Below are positions 1,188 to 46,866 of a DNA stretch of 64,000 bases, piece by piece (within the stretch, counting starts at the first letter, position 1; each line of letters opens with the position of its first letter). Both the position numbers and the translations under genes were made by a program. The notes under the pieces were generated by a model, which saw only the letters and a list, made by a program, of their open reading frames with translations, searched no databases and had not been told where the DNA came from. Source of the stretch: Silicimonas sp. (GTDB lineage Bacteria > Pseudomonadota > Alphaproteobacteria > Rhodobacterales > Rhodobacteraceae); NCBI GenBank assembly GCA_022824525.1, contig JAJDZT010000153.1, positions 1 through 64,000 of the forward strand, written 5' to 3'.

Positions 1188-4013
1188 ATGAATGTCCAAC
1201 TAAACACATCGCCCAAAGTCTCGGACGAAGTTCGAAAGACGACGTGCTACATGTGCGCCTGCCGCTGCGGCATCAACGTGCATCTCAAAGACGGCAAGGT
1301 TGCCTATATCGAGGGCAACAAGGATCACCCGGTAAACAAAGGTGTGCTCTGCGCCAAAGGGTCGTCGGGGATCATGCAACATCTTTCGCCTGCACGACTA
1401 CGGTCTCCGCTGAAGCGCGTGGGGCCGCGTGGTTCAGGCGAGTTCGAAGAAATTTCCTGGGAAGAAGCCCTTGAGACTGCGGTGTCGTGGCTAAAGCCGC
1501 TCCGCGATTCCGATCAGTCCAAACTTGCCTTCTTCACCGGACGCGACCAGTCGCAATCCTTCACATCCTTCTGGGCGCAGGCGTTTGGCACACCGAACTA
1601 CGCAGCTCACGGCGGCTTTTGTTCCGTCAACATGGCAGCCGCCGGCATCTACACAATGGGCGGCGCGTTTTGGGAGTTCGGACAGCCAGACTGGGATCGC
1701 ACCAAGCTGTTCATGATCTTTGGCGTTGCCGAAGATCACGACAGCAACCCCATCAAGATGGGACTTGGCAAACTCAAGGCGCGTGGCGCGAAGGTCATTG
1801 GCGTCAACCCGATCCGGACAGGCTACAACGCCATTTCCGATGAATGGGTCGGCATCACCCCCGGAACGGACGGGCTTTTCATTCTCAGTCTGGTCCATTG
1901 TCTCATGAAGGCCGGCAAAATCGATCTCGATTACCTGGCGCGTTTCACGGACGCTCCCTGCCTTGTGAATGGAGACGAAAAGTCCGACGAGTTCGGCTTG
2001 ATCCTGAAAGACGCGGCCGGAAAAGCGCTCGTCCTGGACCGCAAGACCGGCAAACCGACCCCGTTCGATGACCCTGACGTCGAACCGGATCTTTCCGGGA
2101 GCTATCGCCACGCAGGCATCACCCACCGACCTGTCCTGCACCACATGGCGGATCGCTACCTATCCGACACCTACGCACCGGAAACCGTTGCGGCCAAAAT
2201 CGGCATAACCGCTGAACGCATCCGTGCCATCGCCGCCGACCTTGCACGCGTGGCGTTTGACGAAGCCATCGAGCTTGACCGGGAATGGACAGATTTCCGC
2301 GGAAAGAAGCACAGCAAGATGGTTGGTCGACCGGTCGCGTTCCATGCAATGCGCGGGATCAGCGCTCATTCCAACGGATTTCAGACCTGCCGTGCCTTGC
2401 ATGTCCTGCAAATCATTCTGGGCAGCGTCGAAGTGCCTGGCGGCTTCCGTTTCAAGCCGCCCTACCCCAAGCCCTTCTGGGCGCATCCCAAACCACATGC
2501 CACGCATCAACCTGGCCAGCCGCTGGACGGGCCGCATCTGGGTTTCGTGCACGGACCGGACGACCTTCTGCTGAAGAATGACGATCCGCAGATCAATGAT
2601 CCGAACACGCCGAAACGCATCGACAAGGCCTTCAGCTGGGAAAACCCGATGAGCAGCCACGGGTTGATGCACATGCTCATCTCCAACGCGCATGCGGGCG
2701 ACCCGTACAAGATCGACACCATGATGCTCTACATGGCGAACATGTCGTGGAATTCGTCCATGAACACGTCGGGCGTCATGCAGATGCTGACTGACAAGGA
2801 TGAAAACGGCGACTACGTCATACCGCGCATCATCTATTCGGACGCCTATTCCTCCGAGATGGTGGCCTATGCCGACCTGATCCTGCCAGACACGACCTAT
2901 CTTGAGCGTCATGACTGCATTTCCCTCCTCGACCGCCCGATTTGCGAAGCGGAGGCGGCAGCAGACGCAATTCGTTGGCCAGTGGTTGAGCCCGACCGTG
3001 ACGTGCGCGGCTTCCAGTCCGTCCTCTGCGATCTTGGCGGACGGCTTGGCCTGCCCGGCTTCACGAACGAGGACGGCAGTACGAAGTACAAGGACTATGC
3101 CGACTACATACAGAACCACGAGCGCAAGCCGGGTGTGGGTCCTCTGGCGGGGTGGCGTGGCAACGGAGACGAGCACGGACGCGGTGGAGCGAACCCCAAT
3201 CAGATCGAGAAGTACATCGAGAACGGCAGTTTCTGGGTAAGCCACATTCCGGAAGAAGCTGAATTCTACAAACCCTGGAACGCCGCCTATCAGGATTGGG
3301 CCGTGAACCTTGGCTTGTATGACGCGCCGACACCCTATCTTTTCACGCTCTGGAGCGAGCCGCTTCGACGCTTCCAACTTGCAGCCGAGGGCAAACACCG
3401 TCTTTCCCCTCCCGAGCATCTGAAAGCGCGCTATGCCGAAACGATGGATCCCCTCCCGCTCTGGTATCCGCCATTTTCTGATGCTGATGAAGGTTACGAT
3501 GTCCATGCGCTGACGCAGCGACCGATGGCCATGTATCACTCTTGGGGATCGCAGAACGCCTGGCTTCGACAAATTCACGGTCGTAACCCGCTCTATGTGC
3601 CGACAAAGATCTGGGAAGCGAACGGCTTTGAAGACGGAGATTGGGCGAAGGTCACGTCACCGCATGGCAACATCACGGTGCCGGTCGCTCACATGGCCGC
3701 TCTTAATGAAAATACAGTGTGGACCTGGAACGCTATCGGCAAACGGAAAGGAGCGTGGGCCCTTGAACCCGATGCGCCGGAGGCGACCAAGGGTTTTCTT
3801 CTGAACCACATCATCCACGAACTGCTTCCTCCCAAAGGCGATGGCCTTCGCTGGGCCAACTCAGACCCGATTACGGGACAGGCCGCGTGGTTCGACTTGC
3901 GGGTCAAGATCGAGAAGACCGAAGCTCCCGAGGAAAGCCAGCCGAGCCACCCGGGTCAGAAGAGTCCGGTTGGTGCTGGCCCATCCACAGTGAAACAGAA
4001 GCTCGGCGAATGA
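1188..4013 (+). CDS. soeA: Molybdopterin oxidoreductase, probable sulfite dehydrogenase catalytic subunit SoeA
   Basis: This 941-residue protein of the DMSO reductase superfamily carries an N-terminal [4Fe-4S] motif (C20-x2-C23-x3-C27-x27-C55) and the bis-MGD binding architecture. A cysteine in GGFCSVN (about residue 145) lies where the molybdenum ligand of the polysulfide/tetrathionate/sulfite branch is expected. There is no twin-arginine signal peptide before the cluster, so the enzyme should be cytoplasmic, as known for SoeABC and unlike periplasmic DmsA or PhsA. The two following genes encode the iron-sulfur and DmsC-like membrane subunits in SoeABC order. SoeABC oxidises sulfite to sulfate and feeds electrons to the quinone pool. 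In roseobacters it serves sulfite released from taurine and other sulfonates or from thiosulfate. No sulfonate genes are in the window. The alternative is another cytoplasmic-facing molybdoenzyme of the same branch. Confidence 0.82.
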   Translation: MNVQLNTSPKVSDEVRKTTCYMCACRCGINVHLKDGKVAYIEGNKDHPVNKGVLCAKGSSGIMQHLSPARLRSPLKRVGPRGSGEFEEISWEEALETAVSWLKPLRDSDQSKLAFFTGRDQSQSFTSFWAQAFGTPNYAAHGGFCSVNMAAAGIYTMGGAFWEFGQPDWDRTKLFMIFGVAEDHDSNPIKMGLGKLKARGAKVIGVNPIRTGYNAISDEWVGITPGTDGLFILSLVHCLMKAGKIDLDYLARFTDAPCLVNGDEKSDEFGLILKDAAGKALVLDRKTGKPTPFDDPDVEPDLSGSYRHAGITHRPVLHHMADRYLSDTYAPETVAAKIGITAERIRAIAADLARVAFDEAIELDREWTDFRGKKHSKMVGRPVAFHAMRGISAHSNGFQTCRALHVLQIILGSVEVPGGFRFKPPYPKPFWAHPKPHATHQPGQPLDGPHLGFVHGPDDLLLKNDDPQINDPNTPKRIDKAFSWENPMSSHGLMHMLISNAHAGDPYKIDTMMLYMANMSWNSSMNTSGVMQMLTDKDENGDYVIPRIIYSDAYSSEMVAYADLILPDTTYLERHDCISLLDRPICEAEAAADAIRWPVVEPDRDVRGFQSVLCDLGGRLGLPGFTNEDGSTKYKDYADYIQNHERKPGVGPLAGWRGNGDEHGRGGANPNQIEKYIENGSFWVSHIPEEAEFYKPWNAAYQDWAVNLGLYDAPTPYLFTLWSEPLRRFQLAAEGKHRLSPPEHLKARYAETMDPLPLWYPPFSDADEGYDVHALTQRPMAMYHSWGSQNAWLRQIHGRNPLYVPTKIWEANGFEDGDWAKVTSPHGNITVPVAHMAALNENTVWTWNAIGKRKGAWALEPDAPEATKGFLLNHIIHELLPPKGDGLRWANSDPITGQAAWFDLRVKIEKTEAPEESQPSHPGQKSPVGAGPSTVKQKLGE

Positions 4014-4077
4014 CACGAAACCTTGCCAGAAACGCGCGCCGCGATGTGCGCCCCATGATCCAATACGGGCTTTTGCC

Positions 4078-4827
4078 ATGACGACACTGCCGCAGCATAC
4101 TGAAAAGTCACTTGGCCTTGTGATCGACCTAGATACCTGTGTCGGTTGCCATGCCTGCGTCACCGCCTGCAAAGGCTGGAACACGGAAAACTACGGCGCG
4201 CCACTGGCCGATACCGATGCTTACGGCGCCAACCCCGTCGGCAGCTTCCTGAACCGCGTCCATTCCTATGAGGTTCAGCCCGAGACCGGGCCCGCCCAAC
4301 TCTTCCACATGCCGAAGTCGTGCCTCCACTGCGCCGACGCGCCCTGCGTCACCGTTTGCCCCACGGGTGCCAGCTACAAGCGCGTGGAAGACGGCATCGT
4401 TTTGGTCAACGAACAGGACTGCATCGGCTGCGGCCTCTGCGCCTGGGCCTGCCCCTACGGCGCGCGCGAAATGGACCCATCCGAAGGTGTGATGAAGAAA
4501 TGCACCCTCTGCGTCGACCGGATCTATAATGAAAACCTGCCGGAAGAAGATCGCCAACCGGCATGCGTTCGGACCTGCCCGGCAGGCGCACGTCATTTCG
4601 GAGACCTCTCCGACCCGGAAAGCGACGTCTCGAAGCTTGTGGCAGAGAGGGGCGGTATCGATCTGATGCCCGAGCAGGGAACGTCGCCGGTGAACCAGTA
4701 CCTGCCACCGCGCCCACGAGATGAAGCGCCGGAATTCGACGTGCTTGCCCAGTTTCTTGAACCAGTCGCCGAGGAACCTTCTGGCTTCCTCGGTTGGCTG
4801 GATCGCACGCTCTCCAAGGTGTCCTGA
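4078..4827 (+). CDS. soeB: 4Fe-4S ferredoxin electron-transfer subunit, probable SoeB
   Basis: This 249-residue protein has four cysteine clusters in the DmsB/NrfC pattern: CVGCHACVTAC near residue 21, CLHCADAPCVTVC in the middle, CIGCGLCAWACPYG, and CTLCVDRIY followed by CVRTCPAG. Four [4Fe-4S] clusters form the wire between the molybdenum subunit and the quinone-reacting membrane subunit. There is no signal peptide, in agreement with a cytoplasmic SoeA. It begins 64 bases after soeA, and its stop codon overlaps the soeC start by one base (TGATG), which points to translational coupling. The C-terminal tail after the last cluster (about 70 residues) is acidic and proline-containing and probably contacts SoeC. 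Confidence 0.85.
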   Translation: MTTLPQHTEKSLGLVIDLDTCVGCHACVTACKGWNTENYGAPLADTDAYGANPVGSFLNRVHSYEVQPETGPAQLFHMPKSCLHCADAPCVTVCPTGASYKRVEDGIVLVNEQDCIGCGLCAWACPYGAREMDPSEGVMKKCTLCVDRIYNENLPEEDRQPACVRTCPAGARHFGDLSDPESDVSKLVAERGGIDLMPEQGTSPVNQYLPPRPRDEAPEFDVLAQFLEPVAEEPSGFLGWLDRTLSKVS

Positions 4828-5696
4828 TGCATCCCGCTCCCTCAATCATCCTTTTCACGACACTCTCGGGCCTGGGCTTCGGCATGCTGGCCTTCTTGGG
4901 ACTTGATGTACCCGCACCCCGCGGATGGATCGCTTTCTGGTTCTTCCTGATCGCTTACGTTCTTGCGGTCGGAGGACTCTTGGCATCGACCTTTCATCTC
5001 GGTCATCCGGAACGCGCGCTGAAAGCCTTCACGCAATGGCGATCGTCATGGCTTAGCCGGGAAGCGTGGCTTGCCGTGGCAACCCTTGTCCTCATGGGAA
5101 TATACGCGCTTGGCCTTGTCTTCTTTGATGTCAGGCTCAGGCTTTTCGGCATTGCCGGCGGCTTGCTTGCGCTCGGAACGGTCTTCGCAACATCGATGAT
5201 CTACACGCAAATGCGCACGGTGCCGCGGTGGAACCACTGGACCACGCCAATTCTGTTCTTGGCCTACGCCATTGTCGGCGGTGCGCTCCTGACAGGACGC
5301 GTGGAACTTGCGCGCGCCCTGTTACCTCTCCTTTTGATCCTTCAAGTCTTTGCGTGGATCGACATGGACCGGCACGAAAAAGCCGACCCGACGAACATTG
5401 GCACCGCCACCGGGCTGGGTGATCGTGGAACGGTGCGTGCCTTCGAGGCACCCCATACCGGTGAGAATTATCTCACGAAGGAGATGGTCTTCCGCGTTGG
5501 CAGAAAGCACAGTTCCGTGCTCAAGGTTCTCGCGCTTTTCATTGGTATGCTGCTGCCGGCATTTCTGCTCTTCCTCCCGTTCAATCACGTGTTCGCCGCG
5601 TTTGCGGTCCTGCTACATCTCACAGGTGTTCTGGTCCAACGCTGGCTCTTCTTCGCTGAGGCGCGACACGTGGTCAGCTTTTACTATGGGCGTTGA
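4827..5696 (+). CDS. soeC: DmsC-like membrane anchor subunit, probable SoeC
   Basis: Taking the ATG that overlaps the soeB stop (TGATG at 4825-4829) gives a 289-residue polytopic membrane protein. The track ORF starts 11 codons earlier, inside soeB, and is less likely. About eight hydrophobic segments are visible, starting with the one in LFTTLSGLGFGMLAFLGL. A histidine lies in LASTFHLGHPERA and the family-typical PRWNHWTTP occurs near the middle. DmsC-family anchors hold the catalytic module on the inner face of the membrane and hand electrons to or from quinone. The gene ends the soe operon. A 110-base gap separates it from phaA, which has its own control site. Confidence 0.82.
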   Translation: MHPAPSIILFTTLSGLGFGMLAFLGLDVPAPRGWIAFWFFLIAYVLAVGGLLASTFHLGHPERALKAFTQWRSSWLSREAWLAVATLVLMGIYALGLVFFDVRLRLFGIAGGLLALGTVFATSMIYTQMRTVPRWNHWTTPILFLAYAIVGGALLTGRVELARALLPLLLILQVFAWIDMDRHEKADPTNIGTATGLGDRGTVRAFEAPHTGENYLTKEMVFRVGRKHSSVLKVLALFIGMLLPAFLLFLPFNHVFAAFAVLLHLTGVLVQRWLFFAEARHVVSFYYGR

Positions 5697-5766
5697 ACGC
5701 ATAACGGGTATGAGTGCGTAGCGGCATTCCGTGCATTGCGTTTTTTCAGCAATCGCCTATTAAATG

Positions 5767-5777
5767 CTGCAGTGCAG
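5767..5777. promoter_or_regulatory. Candidate PhaR operator upstream of phaA
   Basis: The perfect palindrome CTGCAGTGCAG lies 30 bases before the phaA start. It fits the CTGC-N3-GCAG pattern that I recall for PhaR, the repressor of PHB genes in Rhodobacter and Paracoccus. Its position close to the ribosome-binding site would allow PhaR to block transcription of phaA-phaB. The phaR gene itself is not in this window, so the link is inferred from motif and context. Confidence 0.5.
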
Positions 5778-5806
5778 AAAAACTCTGCTTCTGAGGAGGA
5801 AGCCAT

Positions 5807-6982
5807 ATGACCAACGTCGTTATCGCCTCTGCTGCCCGTACCGCGGTCGGCAGCTTCAACGGTAGTTTTGCGAACACCCCCGCCCATGATCTTGGCGCCA
5901 CCATGCTGGAAGCACTGGTCGAGCGCGCGGGCGTCGAAAAATCAGATGTCTCCGAAACCATTCTGGGTCAGGTGCTGACCGCTGGCCAAGGTCAAAACCC
6001 GGCGCGCCAGGCGCATGTGAATGCCGGCCTTCCGATCGAAAGCGCTGCGTGGGGCATCAACCAGGTTTGCGGTTCCGGCCTTCGCGCCGTCGCGCTTGGC
6101 GCACAGCACATCCAACTGGGCGACGCGTCGATTGTTGCTGCTGGTGGTCAGGAAAACATGTCGATGAGCCCCCACGCTCAGGCAATCCGCGCCGGACAGA
6201 AGATGGGCGACCTGAAACTGATCGACACGATGATCAAGGATGGTCTCTGGGACGCATTCAACGGCTATCACATGGGCCAGACGGCCGAGAACGTTGCCGA
6301 GAAGTGGCAGATCAGCCGTGAGCAGCAGGACGAGTTTGCCCTCGCCTCTCAGAACAAGGCCGAAGCCGCTCAGAATGCAGGCAAGTTCGACGATGAGATC
6401 ACGCCTTTCACCGTGAAGACCCGCAAGGGCGATATTGTTGTCGACAAGGATGAGTACATCCGCCACGGCGCAACGATCGACAACATGACAAAGCTCCGTC
6501 CGGCTTTCACAAAGGAAGGTTCGGTCACGGCAGGAAACGCATCCGGCATCAACGACGGCGCTGCCGGTGCTCTCTTGATGAGCGCGGACGAAGCAGAAAA
6601 GCGCGGGATCGACCCGCTTGCACGCATCGTTTCCTACGCAACGGCCGGCCTTGATCCTTCGATCATGGGCGTAGGTCCAATTCACGCCTCCCGCAAAGCT
6701 CTGGAAAAAGCGAACTGGAAGGTTGAGGATCTGGATCTCGTTGAAGCCAACGAAGCCTTTGCGGCCCAGGCCTGCGCCGTGAACAAAGACATGGGGTGGG
6801 ACCCTGAGATCGTGAACGTCAACGGCGGAGCGATCGCGATCGGCCACCCAATCGGTGCATCTGGCGCACGCGTTCTCAACACGCTGCTGTTCGAGATGAA
6901 ACGCCGCGACGCCAAGAAAGGCCTCGCTACGCTTTGTATCGGCGGCGGCATGGGTGTTGCGCTTTGCGTTGAACGCCCCTGA
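5807..6982 (+). CDS. phaA: Acetyl-CoA C-acetyltransferase (beta-ketothiolase) PhaA
   Basis: The 391-residue protein is a full-length thiolase. The nucleophilic cysteine is in [11 protein letters not shown] (about residue 87), the catalytic histidine in [16 protein letters not shown] and the second cysteine in the C-terminal [10 protein letters not shown]. It condenses two acetyl-CoA to acetoacetyl-CoA, the first step of polyhydroxybutyrate synthesis, and can run in reverse in acetate or ketone-body metabolism. A strong GAGGAGG ribosome-binding site precedes the ATG. The acetoacetyl-CoA reductase gene phaB follows after 89 bases, so the two form the biosynthetic pair. No PHB synthase, phasin or depolymerase gene is in the window. 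A candidate PhaR box lies just upstream. Confidence 0.95.
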
Positions 6983-6991
6983 GGCAATGAC

Positions 6992-7020
6992 GTGATGGCG
7001 CAGTCCTACTGCGCCATCAC
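6992..7020 (+). other. Perfect stem-loop between phaA and phaB
   Basis: GTGATGGCGCAG (6992-7003) is repeated in reverse complement at 7009-7020 around a five-base loop, giving a perfect 12-bp hairpin. No T-run follows, so it is unlikely to be a full intrinsic terminator. It could protect the phaA 3' end, partially attenuate, or mark an RNA processing point that sets the phaA to phaB ratio. Confidence 0.7.
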
Positions 7021-7071
7021 AGCGTATCTCGTGACAAGATTCCAAATCACACATTTCTCGAGGAGGAGAAC

Positions 7072-7794
7072 ATGACCCGTGTAGCACTGGTCACCGGCGG
7101 CTCGCGTGGCATCGGTGAAGCTATTTCCAAGGCACTCAAGGCAGATGGTTTTGAAGTTGCCGCCACCTATGCAGGCAACGACGAAAAGGCAGCTGCCTTT
7201 ACCGCGGAAACCGGCATCAAGACGTACAAGTGGAACGTGGCAGATTACGAAGCGTCCAAGGCAGGCATTGCTCAGGTGGAAGCCGATCTTGGCCCAATCG
7301 ATACCGTCATTGCCAACGCTGGCATCACGCGGGATGCGCCTTTCCACAAGATGAGCCCGGAGCAGTGGAAAGAGGTGATCGACACCAACCTCACCGGTGT
7401 CTTCAACACCATTCACCCGATCTGGCCTGGAATGCGCGAACGCAAGTTTGGCCGTGTTGTGGTGATCAGCTCGATCAACGGCCAGAAAGGACAGTTCGCT
7501 CAGGTGAACTATGCCGCAACAAAGGCGGGCGATCTGGGCATCGTGAAATCGCTTGCGCAGGAAGGCGCGCGGGCAGGCATCACGGCGAATGCCGTTTGCC
7601 CCGGTTACATTGCCACCGAAATGGTCATGGCTGTGCCGGAAAAGGTTCGCGAGAGCATCATCGCCCAGATCCCGGCCGGTCGCCTTGGGGAACCGGAAGA
7701 GATCGCGCGCTGCGTGTCTTTCCTCGCCCGCGAAGACTCAGGTTTCATCAACGGCTCGACGATTTCTGCCAACGGGGCGCAGTTCTTCGTTTGA
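7072..7794 (+). CDS. phaB: Acetoacetyl-CoA reductase PhaB (SDR family)
   Basis: This is a classical short-chain dehydrogenase of 240 residues. It has the nucleotide-binding glycine motif GGSRGIGEAI at residue 7 onward, NAG in VIANAGITRD, the active-site serine in VVISSINGQKGQ and the YAATKAG tyrosine-lysine pair. The sequence around the active site (INGQKGQFGQ-like) and the ending NGSTISANGAQFFV are typical of PhaB, which reduces acetoacetyl-CoA to (R)-3-hydroxybutyryl-CoA with NADPH. A GAGGAGGAG ribosome-binding site sits just before the ATG. The gene follows phaA and is closed by a strong terminator, so phaA-phaB is a two-gene unit. Confidence 0.95.
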   Translation: MTRVALVTGGSRGIGEAISKALKADGFEVAATYAGNDEKAAAFTAETGIKTYKWNVADYEASKAGIAQVEADLGPIDTVIANAGITRDAPFHKMSPEQWKEVIDTNLTGVFNTIHPIWPGMRERKFGRVVVISSINGQKGQFAQVNYAATKAGDLGIVKSLAQEGARAGITANAVCPGYIATEMVMAVPEKVRESIIAQIPAGRLGEPEEIARCVSFLAREDSGFINGSTISANGAQFFV

Positions 7795-7812
7795 CGCCAC
7801 CCAAGTAATGTC

Positions 7813-7848
7813 AAAAGGGCCGGTCGAAATGACCGGCCCTTTTTTTTG
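7813..7848 (+). terminator. Rho-independent terminator after phaB
   Basis: AAAGGGCCGGTC and GACCGGCCCTTT pair around a GAAAT loop and are followed by a run of eight T, ending the phaA-phaB transcript 20 to 50 bases after the stop codon. Confidence 0.92.
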
Positions 7849-7872
7849 TATCGTTCCGGTCGCTTGCAACGA

Positions 7873-7974
7873 TTACCGGAAGACACGGAAGATGTTTGCG
7901 AAAGCTTTTGCGCGTTCCTGGTGGGCTGCGCGAATAGCATCACGGGTGCGGGCATTTGCTGTCGGTTCGTACAT
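7873..7974 (-). CDS. 33-residue small protein, DUF1127/RSP_7527-like
   Basis: This minus-strand ORF is too short for the supplied track. It has a GAGG ribosome-binding motif six bases before its ATG and encodes 33 residues beginning MYEPTANARTRD and ending FANIFRVFR. The Arg/Ala-rich amphipathic helix with R-A-x-x-R-A-x-A spacing resembles the very short DUF1127 or RSP_7527-type proteins common in Rhodobacterales, whose C-terminal arginine patch has been linked to RNA turnover. That assignment is by pattern only. It is transcribed divergently from the LysR gene at 8085 across a 110-base region with inverted repeats, so it is a plausible target of that regulator. The phaB terminator lies 25 bases beyond its stop. 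Confidence 0.5.
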   Translation of the reverse strand: MYEPTANARTRDAIRAAHQERAKAFANIFRVFR

Positions 7975-8003
7975 CGGGGACCTCATTAGGTTTGAATTTC
8001 TGA

Positions 8004-8078
8004 ATTGAACTCAATATGGCCACCAGTCTTTAAACTGACAAACGAGACTTTACGCACCTTCAATTAAGATATATTGAA
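8004..8078. promoter_or_regulatory. Inverted repeats in the LysR divergent promoter region
   Basis: TTCAATTAAGATATATTGAA (8059-8078) is a perfect 6-bp inverted repeat with an 8-bp spacer. It ends six bases before the LysR start codon. ATTGAACTCAAT (8004-8015) is a second copy of the ATTGA half-site in closer arrangement. LysR-type regulators usually bind such T-N11-A sites between themselves and a divergent target, so both autoregulation and control of the 33-codon gene are plausible. Confidence 0.5.
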
Positions 8079-8084
8079 CTGAAA

Positions 8085-9035
8085 ATGGCAGACCGACTTC
8101 CTCCTCTCACAGCTCTCCGCGCTTTCGAAGCCGCCGCACGTCACATGTCTTTTGCCAAGGCCGCTGAGGAACTGAATGTCACTCCGGCCGCTTTGTCATT
8201 TCAGATCAAATCGCTGGAGGAGCATCTGGGGCGACCGGTTTTCAACCGCCTGAACAGGGCTGTCGAGTTGACTGAAGTCGGTACATTGCTTGCGCCAGGC
8301 ATCAGGAACGGGTTTGACGAGATCTCGCGCGCATGGAGCCGAGGCCGCCGCCACGCGGATCAAAGCATTTTGACGGTAACCGCAGGCCCTGCATTCACTG
8401 CGCTTTGGCTGGCCCCACGACTGTTCAGCTTCGCGACCGAGCATCCTGAGATAGAGTTGAGGTTTTCGGCCAGCCTACGTCTCGTGGATTTCGATCGGGA
8501 TGACGTTGACCTGGCCATCAGGTTTGGACCGCGGCCGGATGAAAGCCTGTTCTCGCGCGCGTTAGCCGAAGAATGGGCAACACCGATGATGTCGCCGGAA
8601 CTGGCGGGGCGCGTCAAATCTCCGGAAGACCTGAAGGACATTCCGCTTCTGACGGATGAGGTGTCCGAGTCGATACGGCCGTCAATAGGATGGGAAGCAT
8701 GGCTGAAGGCGGCGGGGCTACCGCCCATAGAAACGCATGGTGCACGCTTCAACCAGGCAGATCACGCCGTCAGCGCCGCAGTTGCAGGAACGGGCGCAAT
8801 CATGGGGCGTGGATCACTGACAGAGGCCGCCCTGCGGGAAGGGCGACTGAGCATGCCGTTCAAGCTCTCGCTTCAAACCGCCTCAAAATACCGGCTGGTT
8901 TGCCCACATGGAGTAGAGACGCGACCGCACGTTGCGGCGTTTATGGATTGGATCGACGAGCAGGCCTCTAGCTTGCGCGAGCTTGCGAGAGACCGGGTCT
9001 TCGCCGATCCCCAGAGCATCAATGTCGTTGACTGA
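8085..9035 (+). CDS. LysR-family transcriptional regulator (GcvA-like)
   Basis: The 316-residue protein has the LysR N-terminal winged helix-turn-helix (LTALRAFEAAARHMSFAKAAEELNVTPAALSFQIKSLE) and a C-terminal periplasmic-binding-like effector domain. The PPLTALRAFEAAAR opening and VDLAIRFGPRP in the effector domain place it in the GcvA/AmpR-like subgroup. Its ligand is unknown. The 5' region contains two ATTGA-type inverted repeats and a divergent small gene. The 3' end overlaps the convergent DUF465 gene by 17 bases. Confidence 0.9.
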   Translation: MADRLPPLTALRAFEAAARHMSFAKAAEELNVTPAALSFQIKSLEEHLGRPVFNRLNRAVELTEVGTLLAPGIRNGFDEISRAWSRGRRHADQSILTVTAGPAFTALWLAPRLFSFATEHPEIELRFSASLRLVDFDRDDVDLAIRFGPRPDESLFSRALAEEWATPMMSPELAGRVKSPEDLKDIPLLTDEVSESIRPSIGWEAWLKAAGLPPIETHGARFNQADHAVSAAVAGTGAIMGRGSLTEAALREGRLSMPFKLSLQTASKYRLVCPHGVETRPHVAAFMDWIDEQASSLRELARDRVFADPQSINVVD

Positions 9036-9189
9036 GGCGCTCGATTTCTTCTTTAATCTTTAGTTTTTGCTTTTTGAGCGCAGAAAGTTGGAGGTCATCG
9101 AAAGCCGGGCTGCGCTGCGCCTCTTCGACTTCCACTGAGAGATGTTGGTGTTTCTTGCGGAGTTCCTGAAGGTGTGAACTCAAGCTCAT
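9019..9189 (-). CDS. DUF465 (YdcH-like) small protein
   Basis: This 56-residue minus-strand gene is below the ORF-track length limit. It has a very strong GGAGG ribosome-binding site (AGGAGGACGACA before ATG). The product opens MSLSSHLQELRKKHQHLS and continues with an acidic linker and a second Lys/Glu-rich helix ending EEIERLSQRH. This is the two-helix, leucine-zipper-like layout of DUF465/YdcH, whose biochemical role is not established. Its 3' end overlaps the end of the LysR gene on the other strand by 17 bases. A clear gene-free spacer of about 100 bases separates it from the methyltransferase gene upstream. Confidence 0.85.
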   Translation of the reverse strand: MSLSSHLQELRKKHQHLSVEVEEAQRSPAFDDLQLSALKKQKLKIKEEIERLSQRH

Positions 9190-9295
9190 TGTCGTCCTCC
9201 TGTGTTAGTGGGCAACGCACTGAGTGCAGCACGAAAATCGATTCGTGTCACGCGCCTCTGAGAATCTGGGCCGAAAGGATTGTCAGAAGGTTAAT

Positions 9296-10039
9296 TTACA
9301 GGGGAAGTGCTCGTCCGTCCCGCAAGACAGATTTCGCTAATTGGGAGTAATTGTCTCCGTCTCGAACATGTCTGGCGCCATCATGAAGGATGATTGGCGG
9401 CAAAAGTGTCATGGGCGCCCGGGCCCCTTTTCGGGCGGTCAAAAGAAACAGTTTCGCAGCTCGACCTTCACGTGACGACAAGGGAAGCACCTTCAGGGCG
9501 CCGGCCCTTTGATCCACAACACGAATACACTCCGGCATCTGCTCGATACGATTGATCAGCGTCAGCGAACCTTCCGGCCGCACTCTTCGCAACGCGATAT
9601 CGAGCCAAGTCTCAATCGACATTGACATGCGGCGGCTGGCATCCCGTCCTGCCTCTGTCGCCGGACTGCTCTTTGCAGGCTCAAAGAAGGGCGGGTTCGT
9701 CATTACGTGGTCAAAGCTCTGTTCGCGAATGGAGGATGGCAGTTTTCCGATATCGGCCAAAACGATATCGCCTGCCAGGTTGTTCAGCCCGAGGTTCTCC
9801 CGGGCCAGCCGAGCAAGGTCTTCTTGAAGCTCAACACCAGTGACGTTCACCTCGGGGAGCCGGGCTTTGAGACAGAGCATCGCCGTGCCTACGCCACACC
9901 CAAGATCAAGCACCTTGTCTCCTGCCTTTGCGTTGATCGAGGACGCAAGGAACACCGGATCAGCGCCTGCACGATAACCCGACTTTGGCTGCCTGATCCT
10001 GAGCCGCCCGCCCAAGAACAGATCGTCCGTCGTTTCCAT
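9296..10039 (-). CDS. Class I SAM methyltransferase, TrmN6-like (tRNA1(Val) adenine-N6)
   Basis: The 247-residue protein has the SAM-binding motif DLGCGVGTAML (near residue 46), an acidic motif II in VTGVELQEDLA and the NPPFFEP catalytic motif of N6-adenine methyltransferases. The opening (DLFLGGRLRIRQPKSGYRAGADPVFLA) and length match the YfiC/TrmN6 group, which methylates A37 of tRNA1(Val). A small-subunit or other tRNA substrate cannot be excluded. The start codon overlaps the stop of the upstream DUF2007 gene by one base, so the two are translationally coupled. Confidence 0.85.
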   Translation of the reverse strand: METTDDLFLGGRLRIRQPKSGYRAGADPVFLASSINAKAGDKVLDLGCGVGTAMLCLKARLPEVNVTGVELQEDLARLARENLGLNNLAGDIVLADIGKLPSSIREQSFDHVMTNPPFFEPAKSSPATEAGRDASRRMSMSIETWLDIALRRVRPEGSLTLINRIEQMPECIRVVDQRAGALKVLPLSSREGRAAKLFLLTARKGARAPMTLLPPIILHDGARHVRDGDNYSQLAKSVLRDGRALPL

Positions 10040-10254
10040 CAGCCTTCGACCGGAATGTCGTTGTCTTTCATCACCGCACTTGCACGGAAATGATCACTGT
10101 CCCGCACCATCAAACGACGCGGGAGTACTCCGATCGACCCTTCAAGGACGCTCATGTGGACGTCCATCTCGAAGCAGTCTATATGCTCGCCCTCAAGCAG
10201 GGCTTTGGCGAAAGCGATGACCGTGGGGTCGTTGGTGCGCAAAAGTTCCTTCAT
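10039..10254 (-). CDS. DUF2007 small protein
   Basis: Starting at MKELLRTNDPT gives a 71-residue protein of the DUF2007 type (PII-like fold, unknown role). The signature is the opening LLRTNDPTVIAFAKALLEGEHI, followed by a V-x-D-V-H-M-S-V-L-E-G-S-I stretch and the ending RRLMVRDSDHFRAS. The longer track ORF is not supported because its extra N-terminal part overlaps the divergent prenyl synthase. No strong ribosome-binding site is visible before this ATG. It overlaps the methyltransferase gene by one base and is divergent from the polyprenyl synthase gene at 10310. Confidence 0.82.
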   Translation of the reverse strand: MKELLRTNDPTVIAFAKALLEGEHIDCFEMDVHMSVLEGSIGVLPRRLMVRDSDHFRASAVMKDNDIPVEG

Positions 10255-10309
10255 GAGATGGACATAAGAACAGACCGATTGGTTTGTCGAGCAGCCTGAC
10301 AGGGGTGTG

Positions 10310-11314
10310 ATGAGCTTGGACACCGATAGTTCGGGAAAACCGCACGAAAGACTGGCCGATTTCCTGCGAGACGATCTTGCCGCCGTGGACCGCCTGATCC
10401 GTGAACGTATGGCATCCGAGCATGCCCCGCGCATTCCGGAAGTCACCGCGCATCTCGTGGACGCTGGCGGCAAACGGGTACGGCCCATGCTCACGCTCGC
10501 CGCCGCGCGGCTTTGCGGGTACGAGGGCGACAACCATCATAAGCTGGCAGCGACGGTCGAATTCATTCACACGGCAACGCTTCTGCATGATGACGTGGTC
10601 GACGAAAGCGGTCAGCGGCGCGGTCGCCCGACCGCGAACCTGCTTTGGGACAACAAGTCATCCGTGTTGGTTGGCGACTACTTGTTCGCGCGTTCCTTCC
10701 AACTGATGACGGCAACCGGTTCGCTGAAGGTTCTTGATATTCTCGCCGACGCCGCTGCCACGATTGCCGAAGGTGAGGTTCTTCAATTGACGGCCGCGGC
10801 CAACCTGGCGACGACCGAAGACATTTATCTGAAAGTCGTTCGCGGAAAGACAGCGGCGCTCTTTGCAGCAGCGGCCGAGGTCGGCGGTGTCATCGCCGAC
10901 GTTGACGAGGCGAAGATCGAAGCGCTGCGCACTTACGGAGACGCACTTGGCATCGCCTTCCAGATCGCCGACGACCTGCTCGACTATGGCGGCGACACGA
11001 CGGCCACCGGCAAGAACCTCGGCGACGATTTCCGTGAACGCAAACTGACCCTGCCTGTGATCAAGGCGGTCGCGAAAGCAGATGAAGACGAACGGACGTT
11101 CTGGCAACGCACCATCGAAAAAGGCGATCAGAGGGAGGGCGACCTCGATCAGGCTCTGTCACTTATTGCCAAACACGGCACAATGGACGAAACCCGAAGC
11201 CATGCCCTTGGCTGGTCATCGAAGGCGAAAGATGCGTTGGAAGTCTTGCCCGGGCATGAATTGCGGGAGATGCTAAGCGACCTCGCCGACTATGTCGTGG
11301 CTCGGATCAGCTAG
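10310..11314 (+). CDS. ispB: Polyprenyl diphosphate synthase (octa/decaprenyl type)
   Basis: This is a trans-prenyltransferase of 334 residues with the first aspartate-rich motif in LLHDDVVDES (near residue 85), the conserved GKRVRPML opening motif and the second aspartate-rich motif in FQIADDLLDYGGD. It elongates farnesyl or geranylgeranyl diphosphate with isopentenyl diphosphate to make the ubiquinone side chain. The chain length (Q8 or Q10) is not readable from sequence, although alphaproteobacteria usually make Q10. I chose the ATG at 10310 over the GTG immediately before it. The 3' end overlaps the convergent ispE gene by eight bases, placing two isoprenoid-pathway genes tail to tail. 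Confidence 0.92.
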   Translation: MSLDTDSSGKPHERLADFLRDDLAAVDRLIRERMASEHAPRIPEVTAHLVDAGGKRVRPMLTLAAARLCGYEGDNHHKLAATVEFIHTATLLHDDVVDESGQRRGRPTANLLWDNKSSVLVGDYLFARSFQLMTATGSLKVLDILADAAATIAEGEVLQLTAAANLATTEDIYLKVVRGKTAALFAAAAEVGGVIADVDEAKIEALRTYGDALGIAFQIADDLLDYGGDTTATGKNLGDDFRERKLTLPVIKAVAKADEDERTFWQRTIEKGDQREGDLDQALSLIAKHGTMDETRSHALGWSSKAKDALEVLPGHELREMLSDLADYVVARIS

Positions 11315-12176
11315 ACTGGACTTTCGTTACTTCGACCCACCAGTCTTCGTGCGACGCTCGCAACTGGTCAGCGGCACGCCGGGCCAAGCTCTCTCTTTCG
11401 AACAAACCCCAACAAGTACTGCCAGAACCAGACATGTTGGCAATGGAACACCCCTCGAACGGGCGCAGCGCCCAGATGCATTCCAAAACACCCATTTGAA
11501 AGTCATACATACACATCGTCAAATCGTTACGCGTGCCGGACAACCAAAGCTCGAAATCGGAGTAGCTGCTTAGCTTAGGCATTTCTTCCATGGGTGGGTT
11601 ATCTACGCTGAAATGCTTGTGCAACCTGCCAAACACCTGAGCAGTCGGCACCACGATCCCGGGATTGATCAAAACCAACCAGCATTCCGGCAAATTTTGG
11701 GAGGTGCGGATAATATCGCCAATGCCACCCATGAACGCCGGCTTTGGTGCATGCAAACACACCGGTAGGTCTGCGCCAAGGGTGAGTGCGTCATCCGCTG
11801 ATAACGGCGGAACCTGCCATAGTTTGGCAAGCGCACGTAAGGCCGCCGCCGCGTCCGCAGAACCACCGCCTACTCCGCCACCGTGAGGAAGGTTCTTCAA
11901 AATACTTATGGACGCTCCACGGGTTACACTTCGCTTCGACCGAAGCAGTTTCGCGGCCTTAAGAGCAAGGTTTCTGTCGTCTACCGGGATACCCGAAGAA
12001 AATGGCCCAGACACCGACAGTGAAAGCTCTTCGGAGGGACCGATCGTCAACTTGTCTCCGACATCTCGGGCAAAAACGACCAAGCTGTCCAGCAAGTGAT
12101 AGCCGTCATCCCTTTGTCCGGTGACATGGAGTGTCAGATTGATCTTCGCTGGCGCAAAAACCTCAACCGTCGTCAT
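11307..12176 (-). CDS. ispE: 4-diphosphocytidyl-2-C-methyl-D-erythritol kinase IspE
   Basis: This is a GHMP-family kinase of 289 residues with the early lysine and PAKINLTLHV substrate motif (residue 8 onward), the glycine-rich ATP loop PHGGGVGGGSADAAAALRAL, and the C-terminal motif SGSGSTCWGLF. It phosphorylates CDP-methylerythritol in the non-mevalonate isoprenoid pathway. IspD of the same pathway is encoded at 34.5 kb. The start lies 14 bases inside the upstream TPR gene, which suggests the two are co-transcribed on the minus strand. The stop overlaps the end of the convergent prenyl synthase gene. Confidence 0.95.
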   Translation of the reverse strand: MTTVEVFAPAKINLTLHVTGQRDDGYHLLDSLVVFARDVGDKLTIGPSEELSLSVSGPFSSGIPVDDRNLALKAAKLLRSKRSVTRGASISILKNLPHGGGVGGGSADAAAALRALAKLWQVPPLSADDALTLGADLPVCLHAPKPAFMGGIGDIIRTSQNLPECWLVLINPGIVVPTAQVFGRLHKHFSVDNPPMEEMPKLSSYSDFELWLSGTRNDLTMCMYDFQMGVLECIWALRPFEGCSIANMSGSGSTCWGLFERESLARRAADQLRASHEDWWVEVTKVQSS

Positions 12177-13869
12177 TGGCGACCCGAAGTGGCGGCGCGC
12201 CTTCTTCTTCCAGAACCTTGTAAAGACCGACGTCCAACTTGCGACGGATGCGATCCGGATCGATGTCGTTCAGATCGGTGTCGTCCGTGATAAACGAGAG
12301 CGCCCGATGCCACTGGAACTCCGCCTCACGATAACGGCCGACAGCCCAATACACATCGCCGAGATGGTCGTTGACGATGGGATCGACCGGCATCTTTTCA
12401 ACGGCGTTCTCCATGTGACCGACCGCCTCTTCGTATCGGCCAAGGCGGAACAAACCCCACCCGAGCGAGTCGATGATGTAACCTGACTCCGGCTGAAGCT
12501 CGACGGCGCGTTCAATCATCGAAAGCGCTTCGTCATAGTTGGTCTTCATCTCAAGGAAAGAGTAACCGAGGTAGTTCAAAACCTGTGGCTGGTCCGGACG
12601 TAGCTCCAGAGCTTTTCGGAAGTCAGCCTCAGCAGGTTCCCATTGTTGTGTGCGCTCAAACGAGATGGCTCGCGCGAAGAACACGATCCAATGCTGTTCC
12701 TCCGGCGTGTCGATAAGAGAAATTGCCTTGTTGTAGGAAACCAGCGCTTCTTCAAAACGCTCCATTCCACGAAGGGTGTCGGCAAGCGTGACATGAACCA
12801 ACGGAAGGTCACCATGGCTTTCAGCAAGCTGGTTAAGTACCTCGATTGCGGCTTCCTGCCGTCCTGAACGTCTTAAGGCTTCCGCACGTCCGATTTCCGC
12901 CGCATGGAACGACGGGTCATCTCGGGGAACCCGATCATAGACCTCGGTCGCCAAATCGAAACGCTGGAGGCTTTCGAGAAGCTCCGCAGAAAGCAACAGG
13001 GCATCGATATGGTCCGGGCGAATGGTAGCCGCCATCCGAGAATACAGAACCGTGTAGGCCGGCTGCGCCTCGACACGGAGGGCGTTTGCGATCGAGAAAT
13101 AGACTTCGGCAACGCCTTCTGCAGGGGATGTCACCGTTTCAAAGCTCAGGGTCTCCCCTGCTTCGAGGCGAATGCGAAGATCTTCCAGATAGGGGTCCAG
13201 CGAAGACCCGAAGGAAGCGGAAATTAACTCGATGGCATCCGCGTTTCTTTCGAGTTGGCTCAATACTTCCGCATAGGCCACCACACCGCGCCGCGACAAA
13301 CGCAGCTCGGTGCCGCCTTCGCCGGACATGATGGTCGCCGCGCCTTCGAAGTCGCCTACGGAGGCAAGCGCCAATGCCTTGTGATAGAGGCCAAATGCCT
13401 GAACGCCCGCATTCGCCGACACCTCGTCAAACGCGTCGACAGCCGCCGTCATGTTGCCGGAACCGACCAACGACCAAGCTTGCACCAAACCGTCAAACAA
13501 TGGTCCCACGGACAGGCCACGGTCGAAGCCGCCGCGCAGATCGTCCCATGCACCGGCCTTTGCATTCGCGCCCGTCAAAATCAGACCGCCCAACTGTCCG
13601 GTGGACCCGGCCGACACCATACGGCGTGCAATTTCGGTTGCGCGATCCAGATCGCCCAATCCGACATAAGCGGTCGCGGCACTCTCAAGCAGCGTCAGAT
13701 TGCCGGGATCACGGATCAAGGCGCGGGAAAAGTACTCCGCCGCGGCATCATAATCGCTCGCTGCGATGGCCGAACGGGCTGCAAGATAGCTTCCGCTGTC
13801 AGCAAGGCTCGCGGATGGCGAAAGGCCAACGCTCAAGGCAATCGCAAGGGTCAGTTGTGTAAGCCGCAT
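12163..13869 (-). CDS. Exported TPR-repeat protein
   Basis: Starting at the ATG at 13869, which has an AAAGG motif at good spacing, gives a 568-residue protein with a clean Sec signal peptide (MRLTQLTLAIALSVGLSPSASLA). The mature part is made almost entirely of tetratricopeptide repeats. The clearest are in the C-terminal third (QPQVLNYLGYSFLEMKTNYD, SGYIIDSLGWGLFRLGRYEE and VNDHLGDVYWAVGRYREAE). Such proteins are periplasmic or lipid-anchored scaffolds. The repeats resemble those of the BamD/NlpI/LapB-type and other Rhodobacterales TPR proteins, but I cannot name a partner. It forms a transcription unit with ispE. Confidence 0.88.
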   Translation of the reverse strand: MRLTQLTLAIALSVGLSPSASLADSGSYLAARSAIAASDYDAAAEYFSRALIRDPGNLTLLESAATAYVGLGDLDRATEIARRMVSAGSTGQLGGLILTGANAKAGAWDDLRGGFDRGLSVGPLFDGLVQAWSLVGSGNMTAAVDAFDEVSANAGVQAFGLYHKALALASVGDFEGAATIMSGEGGTELRLSRRGVVAYAEVLSQLERNADAIELISASFGSSLDPYLEDLRIRLEAGETLSFETVTSPAEGVAEVYFSIANALRVEAQPAYTVLYSRMAATIRPDHIDALLLSAELLESLQRFDLATEVYDRVPRDDPSFHAAEIGRAEALRRSGRQEAAIEVLNQLAESHGDLPLVHVTLADTLRGMERFEEALVSYNKAISLIDTPEEQHWIVFFARAISFERTQQWEPAEADFRKALELRPDQPQVLNYLGYSFLEMKTNYDEALSMIERAVELQPESGYIIDSLGWGLFRLGRYEEAVGHMENAVEKMPVDPIVNDHLGDVYWAVGRYREAEFQWHRALSFITDDTDLNDIDPDRIRRKLDVGLYKVLEEEGAPPLRVANDDG

Positions 13870-17532: not shown

Positions 17533-17807
17533 TATTGGCTCCCAGAGCAAAAGGTCGAAAGGGTGTCTAATCCCTGCTTCTGAGGGAATTTGGATACGAA
17601 TTGAGAAAATATTGAGGCAAATAATGGGACTAATCGCGATCTGACACGGTGATTTGCCGTCCTCTTTCACGAAATCGCGAGTTTTAGCGGGCAATGCGCG
17701 AACTTGGACGGGCGAGACCGCTGGATAGCTCCCCAAAAGAAACTTCTCGTAAACCTTTCTTAACGATACCTGCCGCCAGGTAATGGTTGGGTGCAGAAAC
17801 AGATCCC

Positions 17808-17890
17808 TGCACCGACGCAATACCGACGTAGGGACCGACGTATTACCGACGTCGCGTTTGCAGCGCATACCCTTGTTTGCTTGCATTAAC
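17808..17890 (-). repeat. Dispersed repeat copy 1 with four ACCGACG iterons
   Basis: This 83-base block matches 46535-46617 in reverse complement at roughly 80 percent identity. It contains four direct ACCGACG units starting at 17811, 17822, 17834 and 17845, that is, at 11-12 bp spacing, so they lie on one face of the helix. It is bordered by the conserved TGCATTAAC. Read on the minus strand it lies 276 bases upstream of the OmpA-like gene. A separate hairpin (GTGCAG at 17791, CTGCAC at 17807) abuts it. The remaining gap to greA and to the OmpA start (17533-18019, 487 bases) holds no gene that I can support. A near-CtrA motif (GTAA-N7-TTAA) lies around 17749-17763. Confidence 0.8.
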
Positions 17891-45058: not shown

Positions 45059-45993
45059 TGGTCCTGTATCTGCCGGACGACGCCCTTGAGGCGATGGACA
45101 TTGCTCCGGCTGCCATCGCCGACGCAATCGAAGCGGCGTTGATGGAAAAAGCCGAGGGGCACCTCCATGTTTCGCCCAAAGCCGCGATTCTTCCGGGTGA
45201 AGGCAGATACATGATGTCGACCTTGGCTGTCGGCGGCGTCACCGTCGTGAAGCAAGTCACGGTTTCACCAGACAATCCACAAAAAGGGCTACCGGCAATC
45301 AACGGCGCAATCATGGTGTTGGATGCTGAAACAGGCTTGTTGCGGGCTTTGATGGGGGCAAACTGGATTACGGCGCATCGTACCGCCGCGCTCTCCGCCG
45401 TTGCGGCCCGCCGGTTGGCAGACCCGGACGCTTCCACGATTGCTTTTGTGGGTTGTGGTGTACAGGCGCACAGCCATTTGCGGGCCTTTCGCGAAATGTT
45501 CCCATTGAAAAAAGTGATCGCGGTTGGCCGCAGCCAGTCCACTGTCGACACCTTTCTCCAGCATGCAGTGGCGCAAGGTTTCGAGGCAATACAGGCCGCA
45601 CCTGAAGACGCCCTGGGCGAAGCGGACCTGATCGTGACATCCATTACGCTCAACTACGACACAACACCCTTTCTGGATGCGCGTTGGCTCAAGCCCACAG
45701 CATTTGCAGCGATCACCGACCTTTGCATTCCTTGGGTCGATGCTTCGATGGAAGCCTTCGGAACCGTCGTTGTCGATGACCTGGAACAGGAGCGAACCGC
45801 GGAAAAGCCGATGCTGAATTCAGAGATGATCGCTGGCGACCTGACAGGCTTGGTGACGGATGATATCGGCACGCCACCACTTGGCAGGCCAGCGGCCTTT
45901 GCCTTTCGCGGCATCGCCCTTGGTGACTATGCGGCTGCAGCTCTTGCCTTGAAAATCGCCAAAGAAACCGGCGCTGGACAGCGCATCGGTTGA
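45058..45993 (+). CDS. Ornithine cyclodeaminase / mu-crystallin family protein
   Basis: The ATG overlapping the aminotransferase stop (TGATG) gives 311 residues. The NAD-binding motif is FVGCGVQAHSHLRAF and the family MSTLAVGG and GANWITAHRTAALSAVAARRLA segments are present. Members act as ornithine cyclodeaminase, alanine dehydrogenase or ketimine reductase. The aminotransferase partner favours an imine or keto-acid reduction or deamination, but the substrate is not determined by the sequence. Confidence 0.87.
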   Translation: MVLYLPDDALEAMDIAPAAIADAIEAALMEKAEGHLHVSPKAAILPGEGRYMMSTLAVGGVTVVKQVTVSPDNPQKGLPAINGAIMVLDAETGLLRALMGANWITAHRTAALSAVAARRLADPDASTIAFVGCGVQAHSHLRAFREMFPLKKVIAVGRSQSTVDTFLQHAVAQGFEAIQAAPEDALGEADLIVTSITLNYDTTPFLDARWLKPTAFAAITDLCIPWVDASMEAFGTVVVDDLEQERTAEKPMLNSEMIAGDLTGLVTDDIGTPPLGRPAAFAFRGIALGDYAAAALALKIAKETGAGQRIG

Positions 45994-46022
45994 CCGCCAT
46001 CATTCGACGTGGAGGATCGTCC

Positions 46023-46478
46023 ATGCGCAAGTTTCTCGTCATTCTTGATGACAGTCGTGAATGTCTGAACGCCATGCGCTTTGCGGCCATGCGCGCGGCG
46101 CACACCGGTGGCGGTGTCGAAGTTCTCGCTGTCATTCCGCCGGAAGAGTTCAATCACTGGATCGGCGTGGGAGAAATCATGCGCGAGGAGGCACGAGACC
46201 GTATCCATGCCCATTTCGAGGTTTTTGCCAAATGGATGCGGGACCGGCAAAATGTCGACCCCGAACTGGTCATTCGCGAAGGCCAGCCTGTGCAGGAAAT
46301 TCTCAAGCAAATTGAGGAAGATAGCGAGATTGGCGTTCTTGTCCTTGGCGCCTCCGCCGAGAAGGGTGGTCCGGGGCCGATCGTGACCGCGCTCGCCCGG
46401 AACTTCGGGTCCTTACCCGTACCGTTGACCATCGTGCCCGGCGAGTTGTCGAAAGACCGGCTTGAGGCCGTCAGCTAG
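46023..46478 (+). CDS. Universal stress protein (UspA family)
   Basis: The start at MRKFLVILDDSRECLNAMRF, with a GGAGG site nine bases upstream, gives 151 residues. Usp-type features are the N-terminal VILDDS nucleotide pocket and the C-terminal GASAEKGGPGPIVTALARNFGSLPVPLTIVPG, an ATP-binding G-x2-G-x9-G-like loop. It follows the cyclodeaminase gene by 29 bases. A second Usp gene of a different subtype lies at 63.3 kb. Confidence 0.88.
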   Translation: MRKFLVILDDSRECLNAMRFAAMRAAHTGGGVEVLAVIPPEEFNHWIGVGEIMREEARDRIHAHFEVFAKWMRDRQNVDPELVIREGQPVQEILKQIEEDSEIGVLVLGASAEKGGPGPIVTALARNFGSLPVPLTIVPGELSKDRLEAVS

Positions 46479-46534: not shown

Positions 46535-46617
46535 GTTAATGCAGGAAAACAAGGCGAAAGCGCTAAAAACGCGACGCCGGTATCGCGTCGGTGTTACGTC
46601 GGTATTGCGTCGGTGCA
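46535..46617 (+). repeat. Dispersed repeat copy 2 with four ACCGACG iterons
   Basis: This 83-base block is the counterpart of 17808-17890. On its minus strand four ACCGACG or ACCGGCG units lie at exactly 11-bp spacing (46575, 46586, 46597 and 46608 by left edge). It starts with the conserved GTTAATGCA. Compared with copy 1 the iterons and the outer boxes are kept while spacers differ and two single-base indels compensate in length. It is read in the same direction as the Lys/Ala-rich secreted protein gene, 250 bases upstream of it. The rest of the 388-base gap (46479-46866) shows only two TTAACCAT sites. Confidence 0.8.
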
Positions 46618-46764
46618 TGAGCCGGTTGCGGCATCCGGACGCGGAAGAACGGCAATCAGCGTTAACACAGGTAAATGCCTGGTTGACGAGTGTGCGGAAC
46701 ATTCTGGCGGCACCGAAGTCTCGGCGATGCGCCTCGGCGGGAAGACTCAAGCGTGAACGCAAAA

Positions 46765-46807: not shown

Positions 46808-46866
46808 TGTTCCGCGGTGGAGAAAAGCCGACAGTTCGGCAAATGTGTTAAAGTGAGTGAGTTGTG

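Follow-up and report, generated by a model that had tools for sequence, protein, structure and literature searches.

What function could be served by short arrays of a phased heptamer that lie dispersed, on either strand, in the genome of a member of the Rhodobacteraceae? The question is raised by two elements in a 64,000 nt stretch of Silicimonas sp. (Rhodobacteraceae; assembly GCA_022824525.1, contig JAJDZT010000153.1, positions 1-64,000; genome label G000), which we refer to as the window. Copy 1 (17808-17890, plus strand) comprises an iteron array and a downstream block, as delimited by sequence reading, a genome pattern scan and gapped alignment; its neighbours are an OmpA-like gene (minus strand, start near 17532) and greA (start 18020). 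The array (17811-17851, plus strand) consists of four ACCGACG heptamers at 17811, 17822, 17834 and 17845, separated by the spacers CAAT, TAGGG and TATT and following each other in steps of 11, 12 and 11 bp. The downstream block CCTTGTTTGCTTGCATTAAC (17871-17890, plus strand) recurs beside other arrays, and a TTAAC site about 50 bp upstream of the array (17760-17764, plus strand) lies at a distance similar to that of the GTTAAC sites around other arrays. Copy 2 (46535-46617, minus strand), whose neighbours are a universal-stress-protein-like gene (plus strand, 45990-46478) and a lysine/alanine-rich ORF (plus strand, 46864-47571), carries three ACCGACG followed by ACCGGCG at steps of exactly 11, 11 and 11 bp (array at 46575-46614, minus strand), the downstream block CCTTGTTTTCCTGCATTAAC (46535-46554, minus strand) and a GTTAAC about 50 bp upstream (46660-46665, minus strand). 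An initial annotation had placed both copies at these coordinates with this heptamer spacing and about 80 percent identity. In line with it, BLAST aligns them at 83% identity over 84 columns, and in the gapped alignment each copy shows one 1-bp gap, so that the total length is restored as had been proposed. The terminal sequence common to both copies is TGCATTAAC; its reverse complement GTTAATGCA, described as flanking the heptamers on one side, is real, yet it belongs to a downstream block (CCTTGTTTTCCTGCATTAAC) that is found in only a minority of arrays. Pairs of the form ACCGACG-N4-ACCGACG with at most two mismatches occur 7 times in the window compared to 1.1 expected from 100 shuffles, of which none reached 7.

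Further intergenic copies, which the annotation had predicted, are found both in the same genome and in its relatives. A whole-genome scan of G000 returned 20 heptamer triples with flexible spacing and 41 heptamer pairs, compared to 0 and 1 for the reversed-pattern control, and these matches resolve into 23 arrays. The chromosomes of bearers, which are marine Rhodobacteraceae, carry about 23 to 80 such arrays, with up to about 65 or more in relatives of G000; the arrays are short, evenly scattered and strand-oriented. A scan of GTDB species contigs returned at least 112 matching stretches; among those listed, the genera with arrays of this type include Roseovarius, Shimia, Salinihabitans, Pseudooceanicola, Boseongicola, Silicimonas, Sulfitobacter and other Rhodobacteraceae, and every listed array-type match with a named organism falls into this family. 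Matches in Streptomyces, Bacteroidetes and others proved to be simple tandem repeats with other spacers. Within a sample of 397 Rhodobacteraceae genomes (one per genus), 18 contain the strict triple. Exact overlapping triples number 149 in Salinihabitans flavidus, 110 in Pseudooceanicola atlanticus, 91 in Shimia aestuarii and 79 in one Roseovarius, and among the congeners of the window 108 in G001 (where 53 arrays were read), 8 in G003, 1 in G002 and 0 in G004.

The array unit is ACCGACG followed by YRAT (11 bp), repeated three to six times and usually intergenic (10 of 171 arrays lie inside a gene), with the consensus GY-ACCGACG-YRAT-ACCGACG-TRAT-ACCGACG-YRAT-ACCGAC. The helical phasing is a property of the family: steps of 11, 11 and 11 bp are observed in 77 and steps of 11 and 11 bp in 62 of the 171 arrays, which bears out the expected conservation of iteron spacing in relatives. 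Arrays of G000 favour steps of 11, 12 and 11 bp in which a C precedes the third unit, a change that most of its arrays share throughout the lineage. In most arrays of this genome (L266-L285, window), the middle spacer has gone from 4 bp (ending in AT) to 5 bp or a C-ending form at sites where congeners keep 4 bp; this concerted change suggests either gene conversion or joint evolution with the binding protein. Within 120 bp of arrays, GTTAAC is 25 times as frequent as elsewhere in intergenic DNA and keeps to an 11-bp phase, and together with GTTTT and GATTCG it forms a set of recurring flank elements at fixed distance from the arrays. The CCTTGTT/AACAAGG-type block accompanies about 14% of arrays and lies downstream (29 of 207, compared to 3 of 207 upstream). 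Strong hairpins (stem of at least 8) occur 16 times in the 70 bp upstream of arrays of all groups compared to once in shuffled sequences; these are perhaps terminators of the upstream genes.

The annotation could not connect the element to a known one. No Rfam family matches at the arrays, and nothing on this element was found in the open-licence part of PubMed Central. A separate Rfam match in the window, to the 5'-ureB small RNA (RF02514; 31988-32277, plus strand, 121.9 bits), is probably conserved urease coding sequence in antisense reading and not a real small RNA. BLAST gave no match on 72,556 PLSDB plasmids or 50,697 INPHARED phages, a result for which low-complexity masking was ruled out as the cause by a local control; one IMG/VR viral contig (L190) carries an array and may be host DNA. 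The abstract of PMC3532100 describes STAR elements as interspersed intergenic direct repeats and mentions no strand-asymmetry tract for these or other intergenic direct-repeat families; compared to STAR elements as presented there, unit number and phasing of the arrays are constrained.

Are these copies remnants of a degraded gene or of a transposon end, or are they maintained? An orthologue in another congener exists for 10 of 12 arrays of G002 and 12 of 23 arrays of G000, in the same places and in the same direction. Upstream flanks of such orthologous arrays are identical only at the level of shuffled sequence, whereas the heptamers are near perfect in G000 and G001, with 0.26 and 0.19 mismatches per unit, respectively, compared to 0.78 in G002 and 0.49 in G003, in which they have decayed; G004 is without arrays. 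The orthologous place of copy 2 in G002 (L293) holds a decayed array whose downstream block is preserved as CCTTGTTTTGTTGCGTTAAC. Arrays are found upstream of lpd in G000, G001, G002, G003 and also in Shimia haliotis. At this dihydrolipoamide dehydrogenase gene, the array lies 22-49 bp before the gene in several species of two genera (L228, L263, L282, L287, L128). Since the heptamers are kept while the flanks are saturated, and since sites and direction are shared, vertical inheritance and purifying selection that acts on the DNA are indicated. The kept sites and saturated upstream flanks also indicate that the arrays are neither gene remnants nor transposon ends, and the initial view of a dispersed, helically phased, predicted protein-binding array gains support from them. 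Such a pattern is expected where a predicted protein-binding site in the DNA is under selection that has been relaxed in some of the lineages.

The same observations bear on the possibility that the arrays are a domesticated or decaying mobile repeat without present function, whose strand preference at insertion was dictated by replication, as is the case for single-strand-targeting transposons. Congeneric species differ in copy number, from 0 to more than 50, and some flank elements sit at fixed distance; moreover, four perfect heptamers are unlikely to have arisen de novo at each site, so that on this argument the copies must have been pasted. Against this stand the orthologous copies with preserved orientation and near-perfect heptamers next to saturated flanks, and copies from a recent transposon burst would share their flanks. 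Furthermore, neither conserved inverted repeats nor hairpins of the REP/MITE kind were detected, no transposase lies near the arrays inspected, and where arrays of the G305 chromosome are 2.9 and 4.7 kb apart, no convincing resident transposase or DNA-binding gene was found. In G305, about 8.7 kb of unrelated genes separate rplW from rplB and so interrupt the ribosomal protein operon (L353, C1:80000-99999, 3667-12696); two arrays (5314, 9982) lie in this stretch. In sum, we regard a mobile repeat as unlikely and consider the arrays as selected sites.

If the arrays are selected binding sites, they might be operators of an OmpR/PhoB-type response regulator that controls many genes through pho-box-like tandem repeats. 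Pho boxes consist of 7-bp half-sites with 4-bp AT-rich spacers at 11 bp, and the arrays share exactly this head-to-tail geometry. In G000, almost every intergenic array is directed toward a downstream gene of the same orientation, so that a regulatory role is possible in that genome. In the other genomes, however, gene orientation is balanced; in the pooled set convergent, divergent and tandem gaps are all used, with many convergent ones. The arrays are thus not confined to promoters, the promoter orientation being found only in G000, and the targets are unrelated housekeeping genes. The expectation that copies would lie at similar genes was therefore not borne out in the wider sample, and since arrays are tied neither to similar genes nor to promoters, a common regulon is unlikely in general. 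An operator reading also leaves the strand asymmetry described below unexplained, and we hence judge it quite improbable.

Array direction follows local strand asymmetry and not genes. To compare the two, third-position skew was corrected for coding direction beforehand. The ACCGACG strand is the G-poor strand in 85 of 90 listed GTDB loci from many genera (p 7e-20), and in individual genomes in 52/53 (G001), 16/18 (G305), 16/20 (G000), 7/7 (G002) and 7/8 (G003) cases. In Pseudooceanicola atlanticus (G065), skew and array direction flip together every 50-100 kb, with about 17 of 20 windows in agreement. Within the window, the uncorrected GC skew has negative values near copy 1 (plus strand) and becomes positive at about 42-58 kb around copy 2 (minus strand), as predicted. 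Single CGTCGGT heptamers outside arrays show little or no polarity (41/32, 57/32 and 90/81 on the two strands). The complete G305 chromosome carries 66 arrays over 3.6 Mb, which are spaced more evenly than random (CV 0.72 vs 0.98, p 0.004). In being strand-biased chromosome-wide, the arrays resemble KOPS and AIMS, which are strand-biased along replichores (PMC5993296). Unlike these abundant 8-mers, whose bias rises toward the terminus, the arrays amount to about one 40-bp array per 50 kb with array-centred skew, and their single heptamer is not polar.

Beyond the direction of skew, the arrays lie at the focus of a one-sided tract of skew and third-position GC, of which they mark the sharp edge. 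Over 400 contiguous kb of G305, GC skew peaks at the arrays and decays over about 20 kb on the 5' flank of ACCGACG, compared to only about 3 kb on the 3' flank. A one-sided exponential tract model centred on the arrays yields an R2 of 0.45; the true position and shifts of up to 5 kb are the best of 400 circular shifts, and 0 of 2000 orientation permutations fit as well. For example, skew reaches -0.48 just 5' of one array and is about zero shortly past it; other arrays follow the same course, minus-strand arrays show the mirror image, and some arrays are weak. Third-position GC (GC3) is higher on the 5' side at 127 of 157 loci (p 2e-15), by 3.7 points on average and in all five bearer groups. 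The 5' side also has the more negative skew at 107 of 157 loci (p 2e-6), and on that side AT skew shows A exceeding T on the ACCGACG strand. In the array-less congener G004, skew averages -0.08 compared to -0.32 in the same syntenic genes of G001, the G001 loci having been chosen for strong skew. No dose-response between skew and the number of intact heptamers was detected (rho -0.09, p 0.27). In the genome of the window itself the imprint is weak: in G000 alone one-sidedness is not significant (GC3 11/16, skew 10/16), and after coding correction copy 1 still fits, with negative skew on its 5' flank and values around or above zero on its 3' flank, while the copy 2 flanks do not clearly show the one-sidedness. 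Neither the link between array direction and strand asymmetry nor the one-sided tract could be seen by the initial annotation. Gene calls were made with a codon-usage script and not with a standard caller. The third-position correction, bin sizes and decay lengths were chosen after the data had been seen, against which the circular-shift and orientation-permutation tests and the use of independent genera serve as guards. That skew peaks centre on the arrays goes beyond the mere correlation expected of a mobile repeat, and skew that extends 20 kb to one side would not be expected of a regulon.

Mutation over evolutionary time is what skew and GC3 record; which process could leave such a tract? 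One candidate is a Chi-like signal for AddAB that stimulates recombination 5' of itself. The effect of Chi lies on its 5' side and decays over kilobases, and the arrays share this one-sided, decaying effect; the raised GC3 on the active side would fit recombination with biased gene conversion. AddA is present in 26 of 26 genomes tested (in one draft as a fragment only), yet equally so in array-less genomes, and is therefore not discriminating. At about one per 50 kb, the arrays are far sparser than Chi, a single 8-mer for which a density of at least about one per few kb would be expected; their own single heptamers are not polar. Moreover, the sign of the skew implies that the complementary strand was exposed, opposite to the simplest Chi expectation. 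A Chi-like role thus appears very improbable.

A pac site of the Rhodobacteraceae gene transfer agent, from which processive headful packaging would start and recombination in the recipient would leave a tract, predicts the direction, the reach of about 20 kb, the recombination-raised GC3 and the spread of the arrays, as well as the sign of the skew if uptake proceeds 3'-end first. The arrays are also restricted to a family rich in such agents, and Tomasch et al. in 2018 reportedly found non-random packaging in Dinoroseobacter shibae. What speaks against packaging, and led us to reject it, is that the array-rich genome G251 (100% complete) is without the DUF2460 tail gene, as are the drafts G001 and G066, while array-less relatives have it. 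In addition, the small terminase of RcGTA has been proposed to lack a sequence-specific DNA-binding domain (PMC6854486). This renders a pac site highly improbable. As to the tail gene itself, a DUF2460 match is near universal in sampled relatives and absent in G001, G002, G003, G251 and G066, which may mean that the gene transfer agent has been lost there, although incomplete drafts make up several of these genomes; G305 has three matches (C1:10894, 2617612, 3602764), one of them cut by the contig end, which suggests a duplicated phage-like cluster or wrong circularisation. Finally, a polar guide for a chromosome translocase or a polar fork barrier (KOPS/FtsK or Tus/Ter type), while in keeping with chromosome-wide polarity and even spacing, is scarcely credible, as KOPS-type guides predict no local skew peaks, bearers and array-less genomes alike have exactly one FtsK gamma domain (none was found in the draft G154), and a fork barrier predicts a step of opposite sign compared to the observed signature, which diverges from the array.

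As the density of the arrays, and probably the sign of the skew, disagree with Chi, and as G251 has no tail gene for packaging, we chose an initiator-type reading. The array would be a direct-repeat (iteron) site at which a putative sequence-specific protein occupies three to six heptamers along a single face of the helix, with one heptamer to each turn. This complex would mark the start of a unidirectional DNA transaction that proceeds 5' of the ACCGACG strand, in the direction in which CGTCGGT points, with a reach of about 20 kb. On this side the CGTCGGT strand is rich in G and T, with higher third-position GC. Richness in G and T is typical of leading strands and of DNA that is exposed in single-stranded form, and the CGTCGGT strand may accordingly behave, in the direction away from the array, like a leading strand or one that stays single for longer. 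The most likely sub-type would be initiator-driven local replication or strand displacement. While the sequences show the family, its phasing, purifying selection, polarity and the one-sided tract of skew and GC3, we infer that a bound protein starts a process and that this process causes the imprint, and likewise what its biochemical nature may be. That an initiator-type protein starts a unidirectional replication-like or strand-displacing event at the arrays is, in our estimate, a tentative reading that falls somewhat short of an even chance.

A precedent for such an architecture is the double-strand origin of plasmid pMV158, whose bind locus contains three tandem 11-bp repeats with RepB domains placed on the GC-rich part of each repeat along the same side of the helix, spaced by one helical turn, and whose iterons initiate one-way strand displacement (PMC9943647). 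Like this origin, the arrays are tandem 11-bp iterons with a GC-rich core. In contrast to pMV158, a plasmid element with its nick site in a conserved hairpin, they exist as dozens of chromosomal copies without a conserved hairpin: downstream stems of at least 7 were found in 15 of 207 stretches compared to 5 in shuffled sequences, and CCTTG..CAAGG in only 6. Candidate readers of the arrays were searched for and rejected. The plasmid initiator RPA (PF10134) is absent from G305, G251, G276 and G186; an FtsK paralog does not fit the single FtsK gamma domain per genome with no extra copy in bearers, and recognition repeats of the Streptomyces TraB/clt kind were dropped because no second FtsK-like gamma domain exists.

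To our knowledge, replication origins are the only other bacterial elements on which a local, one-sided tract of strand asymmetry is centred, and we know of none that does so in dozens of evenly spaced copies; both the array direction that follows strand asymmetry and the array-centred one-sided tract are new observations. In its widest form, the initiator-type reading would mean that chromosomes of the bearers have, besides oriC, tens of evenly spaced, site-specific start points for unidirectional replication or strand displacement, each an iteron array with its own protein, and that these and not oriC set much of the genome's strand asymmetry, a proposition we hold to be doubtful. The sites are short and predictable and can be tested in the type strains Salinihabitans flavidus, Shimia aestuarii, Shimia haliotis and Pseudooceanicola atlanticus. 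The arrays would complicate origin finding by GC-skew methods in bearer genomes. If they mark recombination, they would represent a new kind of hotspot, with the array-losing species showing its turnover; and if a DNA transaction does begin at them, start points in bacterial chromosomes can be site-specific and distributed along the molecule.
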